The notes beneath the pieces are model-generated. The model was not told the DNA's origin. It was given only the letters and a program-made list of their open reading frames with translations, and searched no databases. Positions 5,012-10,170 of a stretch of 64,000 bases of DNA are shown here, piece after piece (positions within the stretch are counted from its first letter, which is position 1; each line of letters starts with the position of its first letter). Source of the stretch: Massilibacillus massiliensis (GTDB lineage: Bacteria > Bacillota > Negativicutes > FLKF01); assembly GCF_900086705.1 (NCBI RefSeq), contig NZ_LT575483.1, forward strand, positions 2,679,189 through 2,743,188, written 5' to 3'. A program made the translations under genes and the position numbers.

Positions 5012-5998
5012 ATGGGTGCAAAAGAGATTGTTGAGCTTGGTGAAAAGGTTTTATCTGGACAAGAAATCAATGAAGAAGAGGCTTTATATTTGGCGGAAAC
5101 TTGTGCAGAAGACATTCCCTTACTTGGGGCTTATGCAAATAAGATCCGTAGTAAGTTTGCAGGGGATAAGGTTGATATGTGCGGCGTAATCAATGCACGT
5201 TCAGGTTTATGTTCAGAAGATTGTAAGTTCTGCTCTCAATCCGTATATTATCAGACGGATTCTCAGCCATTTTCTTTAATATCAAAAGAGGCAGCTTTTG
5301 CCGCTGCAGAAAAACTTTTTAAAGCTGGTGCAGAGCGTACGAGTATTGTTACGAGCGGAAAAGGAATGGAAGATGATCCGGATTTTGTTTATATTGTTCA
5401 AATGCTACAGTATATTTTGTCGAAATCTAAGATGAAAATTTGTGCGAACTTGGGAACCATTAACTACGAACAGGCAGTTTATTTGAAAAAAATAGGTATT
5501 AAGAGGTATGCACATAATCTTGAAACCAGTCAAAACTTTTATCCGCAGATATGTACAACGCATCCTTATGAGGAACGATTTGATACCCTGACAGCGGTGA
5601 AAAAAGCTGGATTAGAGCTTTGTTCAGGCGGTATTATTGGGTTGGGCGAGAGTTGGAGTGATCGGATCAGTCTTGCACTTACGTTGCGCGCGCTAGATGT
5701 GGATTCTGTTCCGATTAATATATTAAATCCGATCAAAGGAACGTTATTAGAATATCAAGAGCCATTATCTGTATTGGATATTTTAAAGACATTTGCTATT
5801 TTCCGATTTATTTTACCCGATAAAATTATACGCCCGGCAGGAGGGCGCGAAGTGAATTTACGGGATATGCAGGGCGCTGTTATGTTAGCGGGGGCAAATG
5901 GTTTAATTGTTGGCAATTATTTAACGTTTGGTGGTCGCGATATAGAAAAAGATTTTATGATGGTTAAAGATGCAGGCTTGTGTCCTGAAATGAATTAG
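5012..5998 (+). CDS. bioB: Biotin synthase, copy 1 (auxiliary-cluster ligand missing)
   Basis: A 328-residue radical SAM enzyme that inserts sulfur into dethiobiotin, the last step of biotin synthesis. The SAM [4Fe-4S] motif CxxxCxxC is intact (C67, C71, C74 within SGLCSEDCKFCSQS). Of the residues that hold the second cluster in E. coli BioB (C97, C128, C188, R260), the equivalents C144, C204 and R274 are present, but the first is Ser111 (ERTSIVTSG where copy 2 has YRFCVVTAG). It therefore lacks one known cluster ligand. It may be a specialised or partly defective BioB, or act on another substrate. It is the first gene after two BirA-type operators and lies 11 bases before copy 2. No bioA, bioD or bioF is nearby. 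Confidence 0.85.
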   Translation: MGAKEIVELGEKVLSGQEINEEEALYLAETCAEDIPLLGAYANKIRSKFAGDKVDMCGVINARSGLCSEDCKFCSQSVYYQTDSQPFSLISKEAAFAAAEKLFKAGAERTSIVTSGKGMEDDPDFVYIVQMLQYILSKSKMKICANLGTINYEQAVYLKKIGIKRYAHNLETSQNFYPQICTTHPYEERFDTLTAVKKAGLELCSGGIIGLGESWSDRISLALTLRALDVDSVPINILNPIKGTLLEYQEPLSVLDILKTFAIFRFILPDKIIRPAGGREVNLRDMQGAVMLAGANGLIVGNYLTFGGRDIEKDFMMVKDAGLCPEMN

Positions 5999-6009
5999 GG
6001 GGTAAAACG

Positions 6010-7005
6010 ATGAGTTATGATTTGATTTTTTCCTTGGGGAAAAAGGTTTTGGATGGTGGGCAGCTGACGCTTGAAGAAGCGTTGCAGCTTACACAAATTC
6101 ATGAAGATGATATTCCGATTTTATTGGGGGTCGCCAATAAGGTGCGAATAAAATTTACCGGGAATCAAGTTGACACTTGTGAAATCGTCAATGCCCGTTC
6201 AGGTGGCTGCTCAGAAAACTGCAAATTTTGTGCACAATCCGCCCATCATAAAGTAGAGTTTGAAAGATATCCGTTAATGCCGGAAGATCAGATCATAGAT
6301 GCCGCAAAGGCTGCTGAATCTCATGGCGCATATCGTTTTTGTGTTGTAACGGCTGGGTGTGGGATGAAAGCGGATTCGGATTTTGTTAAACTTACCGATG
6401 CAATTAAGCGGATTGGGCGAGAAACAAATTTAGAGCGTTGTTGCTCACTTGGAATTTTAGAGCCGGAGCATGTCAAAGCTTTGAAAAAAGCTGGGATCAC
6501 ACGCTATCATCATAACCTAGAGACAAGCAAAAGTTATTTTGATCAAATTTGTACGACACATACTTATGATGAACGTGTTAATACAATAAAACATATTAAA
6601 GCTGAAGGATTGGAAGTCTGCTCAGGTGGTATTATCGGCTTAGGTGAGAGCTGGGAAAATCGAATAGAGCTGGCGTTTGCACTGAAAGAATTAGACGTGG
6701 ACTCTGTGCCGATTAATGTCTTAAATCCCGTAAAAGGAACTGCACTTGAAGACCGTTTACCCTTGAAACCAATGGAAGTTTTGCAGACGTTTGCAATATT
6801 TAGATTGATATTGCCTACAAAAATTTTGCGTTATGCGGGTGGTCGTGAAAAAGCATTAGGAGAACTGGTACCACTTGGTTTTCTTTCAGGCATCAATGGA
6901 ATGCTGATCGGCAATTATTTGACCACCAATGGACGTGGTGCGAATCGCGATATTGATACGATTCGGGAATTGGGATTGAAACCGATTGTAGAGCAGGCAT
7001 TATAG
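6010..7005 (+). CDS. bioB: Biotin synthase, copy 2
   Basis: A 331-residue biotin synthase collinear with copy 1. It has C67, C71 and C74 for the SAM cluster, and all four positions that hold the auxiliary cluster in E. coli BioB: C111, C144, C204 and R274. Two extra cysteines lie beside them, C117 (VVTAGCGMK) and C145 (LERCCSLGIL). It is known that BioB enzymes of obligate anaerobes can use an auxiliary cluster other than [2Fe-2S]; the extra cysteines make that plausible here, but this cannot be settled by eye. It is co-transcribed with copy 1 (AGGGGG site, no terminator between) and is the better candidate for the working enzyme. Confidence 0.9.
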   Translation: MSYDLIFSLGKKVLDGGQLTLEEALQLTQIHEDDIPILLGVANKVRIKFTGNQVDTCEIVNARSGGCSENCKFCAQSAHHKVEFERYPLMPEDQIIDAAKAAESHGAYRFCVVTAGCGMKADSDFVKLTDAIKRIGRETNLERCCSLGILEPEHVKALKKAGITRYHHNLETSKSYFDQICTTHTYDERVNTIKHIKAEGLEVCSGGIIGLGESWENRIELAFALKELDVDSVPINVLNPVKGTALEDRLPLKPMEVLQTFAIFRLILPTKILRYAGGREKALGELVPLGFLSGINGMLIGNYLTTNGRGANRDIDTIRELGLKPIVEQAL

Positions 7006-7339: not shown

Positions 7340-7873
7340 ATGCAATTAAAAGGAACAAAAACAGAAAAAAATCTAGCGGCGGCATTTGCAGGTGAATCTC
7401 AGGCAAGAAATAAGTATACATACTTTGCATCCGTTGCCAAAAAAGAAGGTTATGAGCAAATCGCTGCGATATTCGATGAAACAGCAAATAACGAAAAAGA
7501 GCATGCGAAACTTTGGTTTAAAGCGCTCGGGGAACTTGGTGACACGCCTGCGAATTTACTTCATGCTGCCGAAGGTGAAAACTATGAATGGACAGATATG
7601 TATGACGGTTTTGCCAAAGATGCGGAAGAAGAAGGATTTACTGCTTTAGCAGCGCAATTTAGAATGGTTGCAAAAATTGAAAAAGCGCATGAAGAAAGAT
7701 ATCGTGCACTGATTAAAAATATAGAAATGCAAAAAGTATTTGAAAAATCCGAAGAAAAAATCTGGGAATGCCGCAATTGTGGACATCTTGTAATGGGCAA
7801 AAAAGCACCTAAGATGTGTCCTGTTTGCGCACATCCACAAAGCTTCTTTGAAGTTAGAAAAGAAAATTATTAA
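7340..7873 (+). CDS. rbr: Rubrerythrin
   Basis: A 177-residue peroxide-reducing di-iron protein of the anaerobic oxidative-stress response. The N-terminal four-helix ferritin-like domain shows iron-ligand motifs in [30 protein letters not shown] and [13 protein letters not shown]. The C-terminal rubredoxin-like domain has CRNCG and CPVCAHP (two CxxC pairs, about residues 142-163). Length and domain order are those of classical rubrerythrin. It is a single-gene unit with an AAAGGAGAG site and an upstream inverted repeat. Confidence 0.95.
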
Positions 7874-9450: not shown

Positions 9451-10035
9451 TTAAATGGTTTGCTGGAATAATCCGTGATTGGAACAATAGAAATATAGTT
9501 TGCCGTGCCCGAATTTATGAAATCTAAATTGCAGATTCCATTCGGGATATTGTTTCACGATAAAAACTTTATCACCTGTAACATAGGCGACAAATGCAAT
9601 ATAATGTTCTTTTATCATCTCATGAGAGGCAGAGATATAGAGCTCATCCTCTATAGGTTCTATTGCTAATCGATGTTTTTCATCGGTTTTAACTGCGGTT
9701 AATGGTTCCAGCTTTTTCCCGCAGCAGGAGATGTTGGCCTCGCCCGTCGCAGTCATGAGATTTTGACATTGCGGGCAGACGTAAAATTTTATCTTTTTCA
9801 TATTTCCTCCAATGGTTTCGTTTAATTCAATGCTGCCGGATAAGAGATATTCAATCGGAACGCCAAGGTTTTGCGATAATTCTGGGAGTAAGGATACATC
9901 GGGGCAGCCAAGTCCCCGTTCCCATTTGCTGATTGTTTTATCGCTGATATTCATTAAATCAGCAAGGTCTTTTTGTGTCATGGATTTTTCTTTTCGCAGC
10001 TGGTAGATTAATCTGCCGATTTTTTCGCAATTCAT
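9451..10035 (-). CDS. XRE-family HTH regulator fused to a complete desulfoferrodoxin-like domain
   Basis: A 194-residue protein. An XRE helix-turn-helix (about residues 5-60: IYQLRKEKSMTQKDLADLMN, then ISDKTISKWERG) is followed by a desulfoferrodoxin-type module. The small iron-binding domain has its four cysteines (C87, C90, C104, C105: CPQCQN and SCCGKKL). The superoxide-reductase domain keeps all five iron ligands of that family (H121 in DEKH, H138 in SHEM, H144 in EHYI, C184 and H187 in CSNHG), plus the Glu-Lys pair before the first His. It may be a redox-sensing regulator, a DNA-bound superoxide reductase, or both. The ATG at 10035 is chosen because the upstream GTG lies inside the GAGGTG ribosome site. 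Confidence 0.85.
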   Translation of the reverse strand: MNCEKIGRLIYQLRKEKSMTQKDLADLMNISDKTISKWERGLGCPDVSLLPELSQNLGVPIEYLLSGSIELNETIGGNMKKIKFYVCPQCQNLMTATGEANISCCGKKLEPLTAVKTDEKHRLAIEPIEDELYISASHEMIKEHYIAFVAYVTGDKVFIVKQYPEWNLQFRFHKFGHGKLYFYCSNHGLFQQTI

Positions 10036-10170
10036 CTGTATCACCTCACAAATTCATTGTAGGATATTTTGCAGTTAAGAACAATAAACGAACCGTAGAG
10101 TTAGATGGCGGTAAAATAATAAAGTTTATTTTTATAGTTTGTACGCGCTGGTATATTTCAATAACAAAAA

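Follow-up and report, generated by a model that had tools for sequence, protein, structure and literature searches.

Whether a transcription regulator that carries a complete superoxide reductase module still works as an enzyme, with catalysis coupled to sensing, or has kept the metal site of that enzyme for sensing is the question raised by one gene in the 64,000-nucleotide stretch of the Massilibacillus massiliensis genome analyzed here (hereafter "the window"). A first-pass annotation had read this gene as an XRE regulator fused to a desulfoferrodoxin, and we compared it with its homologues for domain content, promoter, interdomain linker, neighboring genes, and iron ligands.

Domain architecture and distribution of the regulator

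The gene is a single unbroken open reading frame (coordinates of all features in Table 1), and the fusion that the first-pass annotation had proposed was borne out at both ends of its product. A profile search matched HTH_3 to residues 10-64 with 56.9 bits (cut-off 23), and the TIGR00320 desulfoferrodoxin model aligned over nearly its full length (residues 81-191 to model positions 4-123; 32.9 bits, E 6e-8). This second score is well under the curated TIGR00320 cut-off of 146.9 bits, and PF01880 also stayed under its own (14.7 versus 22.2 bits), so that curated Pfam and NCBIfam thresholds would overlook the superoxide reductase (SOR) domain of this protein. An AlphaFold2 model built from 85 aligned homologues (pLDDT 89, pTM 0.63) had superoxide reductases as its top Foldseek matches (1y07, 2ji1/2ji2, 1vzg, and 1dfx), with E-values of about 1e-7 to 1e-6 and TM-scores of 0.73-0.77 by target length for 1y07, 2ji1, and 1dfx. 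Sequence and predicted structure confirm that the regulator combines an XRE domain with a desulforedoxin-superoxide reductase (Dx-SOR) module in which all nine iron ligands align. The same window also holds a rubrerythrin-like gene (7340-7873), at a distance of about 1.6 kb from the regulator, and a tandem pair of BioB-like radical SAM genes (5012-7005; 328 and 331 aa).

Matches to the regulator at E 1e-15 were found in 47 of 250 genomes of its class, a few of them HTH-only or partial. The genome collection contained 382 relatives, 80 of which were kept, and nearly all were from Firmicutes, including Paenibacillus and Priestia. Two loci carry damaged genes: one (L202) is a broken copy that retains the module with neither HTH nor start, and the other (L214) is a frame-disrupted copy; other genomes have intact copies. 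Ligands and operators were compared across a set of 110 homologues.

Table 1. Features of the regulator locus, in window coordinates
Feature	Position	Strand	Details and evidence
Full-length HTH-Dx-SOR regulator gene	9451..10035	-	194 aa plus stop; 110 homologues compared
XRE/HTH_3 DNA-binding domain, residues 1-64	9844..10035	-	HTH_3 match; model helices H3-16 to H61-66
Putative Shine-Dalgarno plus internal start codon GGAGGAAATATG (Gly76-Gly77-Asn78-Met79)	9799..9810	-	Codon bias, synonymous null, RNA structure
Dx-SOR module, residues 79-194 (predicted 116-aa short product from Met79)	9454..9801	-	TIGR00320, Foldseek, ATG79
Centre I (rubredoxin-like), Cys87, 90, 104, 105 (CX2C-X13-CC)	9721..9777	-	Invariant, 110/110
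Glu119-Lys120-His121 motif and centre II ligands His138, His144, Cys184, His187	9473..9681	-	Column counts; alignment with standalone SORs
Predicted operator ACTCTACGGTTCGTTTATTGT	10081..10101	-	About 66 bp 5' of start codon; PWM
Promoter: -35 TTGTTC, 17-bp spacer, -10 TACAAT	10056..10084	-	-35 overlaps operator 3' end

Predicted operator and promoter, and a candidate second start

The predicted operator at the regulator's own promoter scored 34.2 bits with our position weight matrix (PWM), and the next best site in the window scored 0.0. Equivalent operators were recovered in 107 of the 110 homologous promoters but in none of the shuffled controls, and their distance to the start codon was nearly always 60-70 bp. 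Within these 107 promoters, the TTG of the -35 element at the operator 3' end and a -10 TAnnnT occurred at a fixed 17-bp spacing in 94-100%; for the -10 TAnnnT the figure was 94-97%. Because the matrix had been seeded by eye from the regulator's closest relatives, homologues of about 45% identity, which lie outside the matrix set, matter as an independent set; they have upstream dyads of the CTACG-N3-CGTAG type, perfect in several. Taken with the CTACG-N3-CGT core of the operator itself, these dyads are most simply read as a dimer site. Across the 250 class genomes, about 50 matches to the operator pattern were listed versus about six for the reversed control; most of them are the regulator's own promoter, and they fall mostly in genomes with the regulator gene. 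Conservation by itself supports the predicted site as the specific operator of a one-component XRE factor. Its position beside the -35 element may suit contact with sigma, and thus activation, whereas occlusion of the -35 would mean repression.

In the window genome only the regulator's own site was convincing, and matches with three mismatches were no commoner than in the reversed control, so no target gene beyond the regulator itself was identified there. Other candidates were set aside. Several single-mismatch matches in relatives (L182, L186, L192, and L194-L198) lie inside coding genes and were dismissed as chance or coding, and two further candidates (L190 and L191) fell below the matrix threshold.

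The linker between the two domains carries a putative ribosome-binding site followed by an in-frame ATG. The GGNM that it encodes is nearly invariant, with Met79 in 109 of 110 homologues, and codon 79 is ATG in 85/85 representatives in the synonymous-site test set (proteins 52-80% identical to the window regulator). Codon choice upstream of this ATG is strongly skewed. Gly76 is encoded by GGA in 64 of 72 cases versus 342 of the 1021 glycines elsewhere in these genes (Fisher 5e-21, where P-values treat homologues as independent though ancestry is shared, in a set dereplicated at 88% identity), and never by GGC; GGAGG occurs in 76% of the 85 representatives versus 27% (maximum 41%) in 300 synonymous reshuffles. 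Predicted ribosome pairing averages only -1.3 kcal/mol at other in-frame ATGs, versus -8.8 kcal/mol at the internal start and -8.9 kcal/mol at the genes' own starts. Local RNA structure and G+C at the internal ATG are the lowest of the ±180-nt profile. The predicted short product would begin MKKIKFYVC, the usual beginning of free desulfoferrodoxin, and the Gly76 codon bias together with the minimal RNA structure suggests that a second, sensor-only product is made.

The linker GGAGGAAATATG might also be explained as a relic of gene fusion, as an interdomain ribosome-pausing signal, or as a hinge that matters at the protein level, in each case not as a used start. Such a reading would accommodate the sister group at about 45% identity, where the internal GGAGG is absent and the ATG is absent in several members, as well as the lack of an exact GGAGG in about one quarter of the representatives and the rather short spacing of 4 nt between GGAGG and ATG. 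We judge it rather unlikely, as it is opposed by the conservation at synonymous sites across 85 proteins, by a Shine-Dalgarno energy almost equal to that of the genes' own starts, by the ATG found in 85/85, and by the minimum of RNA structure and G+C within the surrounding 360 nt. Given the sister group without it, the internal start would be a trait of the window regulator's subfamily.

Candidate targets and the state of the metal site

In seven genomes (G004, G043, G008, G026, G044, G114, and G039), extra copies of the operator lie upstream of FMN_red (PF03358) flavoprotein genes, with the flavoprotein gene either directly downstream or second after a small unnamed gene; elsewhere, the gene downstream of an extra copy encodes a small unnamed protein or is a solo XRE gene. 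A flavoprotein gene also follows the regulator in the same operon at L189, L090, L096, and L109, and other regulator loci are coupled to CAT-type acetyltransferases (about 13 loci) or isochorismatase-type hydrolases (about seven loci). One locus, L189 (2353-4792), combines a solo XRE gene, a small unnamed gene, DUF2087, a CAT-type acetyltransferase, the HTH-Dx-SOR gene, FMN_red, and two operator copies. At L180 and L193, both 5' of flavoprotein genes, an apparent HTH remnant follows the operator, as though a second regulator copy had degenerated and its operator had survived to drive the flavoprotein operon. The window genome itself has only distant relatives of FMN_red. Gene neighborhood was rejected as a guide to the regulator's function, as neighbors are mostly unrelated and the recurrent partners (CAT, isochorismatase, and FMN_red) vary by lineage.

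These operon partners are no specific pointer to superoxide, and the Dx-SOR module might sense a different signal (NO, sulfide, nitro or quinone xenobiotics, antibiotics, or iron) and control a regulon for xenobiotic detoxification. The tight coupling of the CAT-type, isochorismatase-type, and FMN_red genes downstream would fit such a role, as would the presence of the family in aerobic-type Bacillales (Paenibacillus and Priestia), but most loci are monocistronic with unrelated neighbors, and the invariant Fe(Cys)4-type cysteines favor redox chemistry; we consider this reading unlikely.

The iron ligands, whose conservation among orthologues the first-pass annotation had made the test of its proposal, proved to be conserved, with all four centre I cysteines in 110/110 homologues and individual centre II ligands in 88-110 of 110. 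The centre II residues of the regulator (His121, 138, 144, and 187 plus Cys184) align with the four His and one Cys of SORs and were retained in 110 (His138), 109 (His144), 108 (Cys184), 95 (His187), and 88 (His121) of the 110 homologues, and residues of the HTH are as conserved as the iron ligands. Departures at centre II were mostly to a carboxylate (His121 to Glu in 18 and His187 to Asp in 12 of 110); the two swaps arose repeatedly (at least 6 and 11 changes across the tree) and never occurred together in one protein. One centre II ligand is Glu or Asp in about 25% of family members, so not every member has the canonical Fe(His)4(Cys) site, and the family looks to have kept its metal site while tolerating some variation at one ligand.

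The catalytic Lys near the active iron tells the window protein apart from most of its family. The Glu-Lys pair highlighted in the first-pass annotation is indeed present in the window regulator (Glu119-Lys120, corresponding to the Glu47-Lys48 pair of SOR), though Lys120 is kept in only 8 of 110 homologues versus EK in 30/30 standalone SORs of the same class, a control drawn from that one class only. Lys120 is sporadic on the tree (minimum 8 changes), and the window regulator's nearest relatives, at 80% identity, have Ser or Asn in its place; position 119 is often Glu or Asp in the family. Outside the window regulator the pair is confined to a few members and does not characterize the family, and because Lys is rare and absent even from the 80%-identical relatives, catalysis coupled to sensing is no family property. 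Moreover, the sole above-threshold PF01880 match in the window genome is a standalone 2Fe desulfoferrodoxin with an EKH motif (L001; G000:C6:3109217-3109471), so that the cell encodes a canonical SOR in addition to the regulator.

A bifunctional protein, that is, a working superoxide reductase in which the oxidation state of centre II switches the DNA-binding domain, would be consistent with the full ligand set and the Glu-Lys pair of the window protein, with the frequent acidic residue at 119, and with an internal start that would free a module beginning where standalone desulfoferrodoxins begin. We regard it as quite improbable in view of the scattered Lys120, the Ser or Asn of the nearest relatives, the tolerated Glu/Asp ligand swaps, and the canonical SOR already encoded by the genome. 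Of the original proposal, the one-component regulator that keeps its iron site is supported by an intact HTH, its own operator, and conserved ligands; retained catalysis coupled to sensing is not supported. An iron-based sensor is better supported by these sequence comparisons than a coupled enzyme-sensor, because the Lys kept by 30/30 standalone SORs is found in only 8/110 family members. That the metal sites are structural (e.g., zinc) and the module is a mere dimerisation domain, with regulation by protein level through autoregulation, is very improbable: the lost catalytic residue, the carboxylate that can replace one His ligand, and an operator found only at its own promoter in the window genome would agree with it, but the near-invariant His138, His144, Cys184, and centre I cysteines exceed the needs of dimerisation, and the operator is also found at flavoprotein genes in relatives.

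Proposed mechanism and comparison with known systems

The reading that we favor, with somewhat more confidence than doubt, is that of an autoregulated one-component iron-sensor regulator, derived from a superoxide reductase and probably accompanied by a sensor-only partner from the same mRNA. A dimer of the XRE domain would bind the operator CTACG-N3-CGT(A/T)(G/T), situated next to or overlapping the -35 of the regulator's own promoter, and the C-terminal Dx-SOR module would sense redox state or reactive oxygen via its mononuclear iron centre(s) and thereby alter DNA binding. As a descendant of superoxide reductase, this module would have been selected for its metal site and not for full catalysis. 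The same mRNA would probably also yield the sensor module alone from the Met79 start, and this short form might dampen full-length subunits by pairing with them, or serve as free Dx-SOR. We infer iron binding, sensing, and dimer exchange for the regulator. More tentatively, and at slightly less than an even chance, the Dx-SOR polypeptide from the internal start would exchange into full-length dimers (or act as a free superoxide reductase), with autoregulation set jointly by the product ratio and the redox state of the iron.

If true, this transcription factor would derive from superoxide reductase and differ from known bacterial ROS sensors such as SoxR, OxyR, PerR, and OhrR, and a single gene would encode both a regulator and its own free sensor. 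In-frame internal starts that give products without the DNA-binding part are known from the Tn5 transposase inhibitor and other N-terminally truncated regulators, whereas the short product of the regulator described here is a prediction only. Two XRE oxidative-stress regulators, Xtr of C. difficile and TrtA of T. denticola, were considered as counterparts and set aside, as neither is described with a SOR domain in the available portions of their sources. The regulator resembles BzdR, an example of the XRE one-component regulators whose sensor domain derives from an enzyme, in having evolved by addition of an HTH to an enzyme domain, as far as the consulted part of that report goes (PMC3602430); it differs in that its enzyme domain is a superoxide-defence metalloenzyme whose metal ligands are kept. 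With desulfoferrodoxin/2Fe-SOR (class I SOR; 1dfx, 2ji1), it shares the fold and all iron ligands, and the free module would start alike, but the regulator has an HTH and only sub-threshold PF01880/TIGR00320 scores, and its family has lost the Lys48 equivalent.

The closest precedent is SORGOdb (2011; PMC3116461), which defined a class HTH-Dx-SOR with 19 proteins and the same domain order of N-terminal HTH, desulforedoxin centre I, and SOR centre II. SORGOdb gives the canonical Dx spacing as CX2C-X15-CC, versus X13 in the window regulator, whose four centre I cysteines are invariant across the homologues. That resource is domain-based and, in the sections consulted, describes neither a function nor an operator, and mentions neither an internal start nor the loss of the catalytic Lys; our literature searches found no functional study of the class, and the operator string had no occurrence in the literature text searched. 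Overall, the HTH-Dx-SOR architecture has been known since 2011, and what appears new from the present comparisons is that a widespread Firmicutes class lying below curated Pfam/NCBIfam SOR thresholds gains predictions of its operator and promoter layout, a set of candidate targets, and a probable second product.
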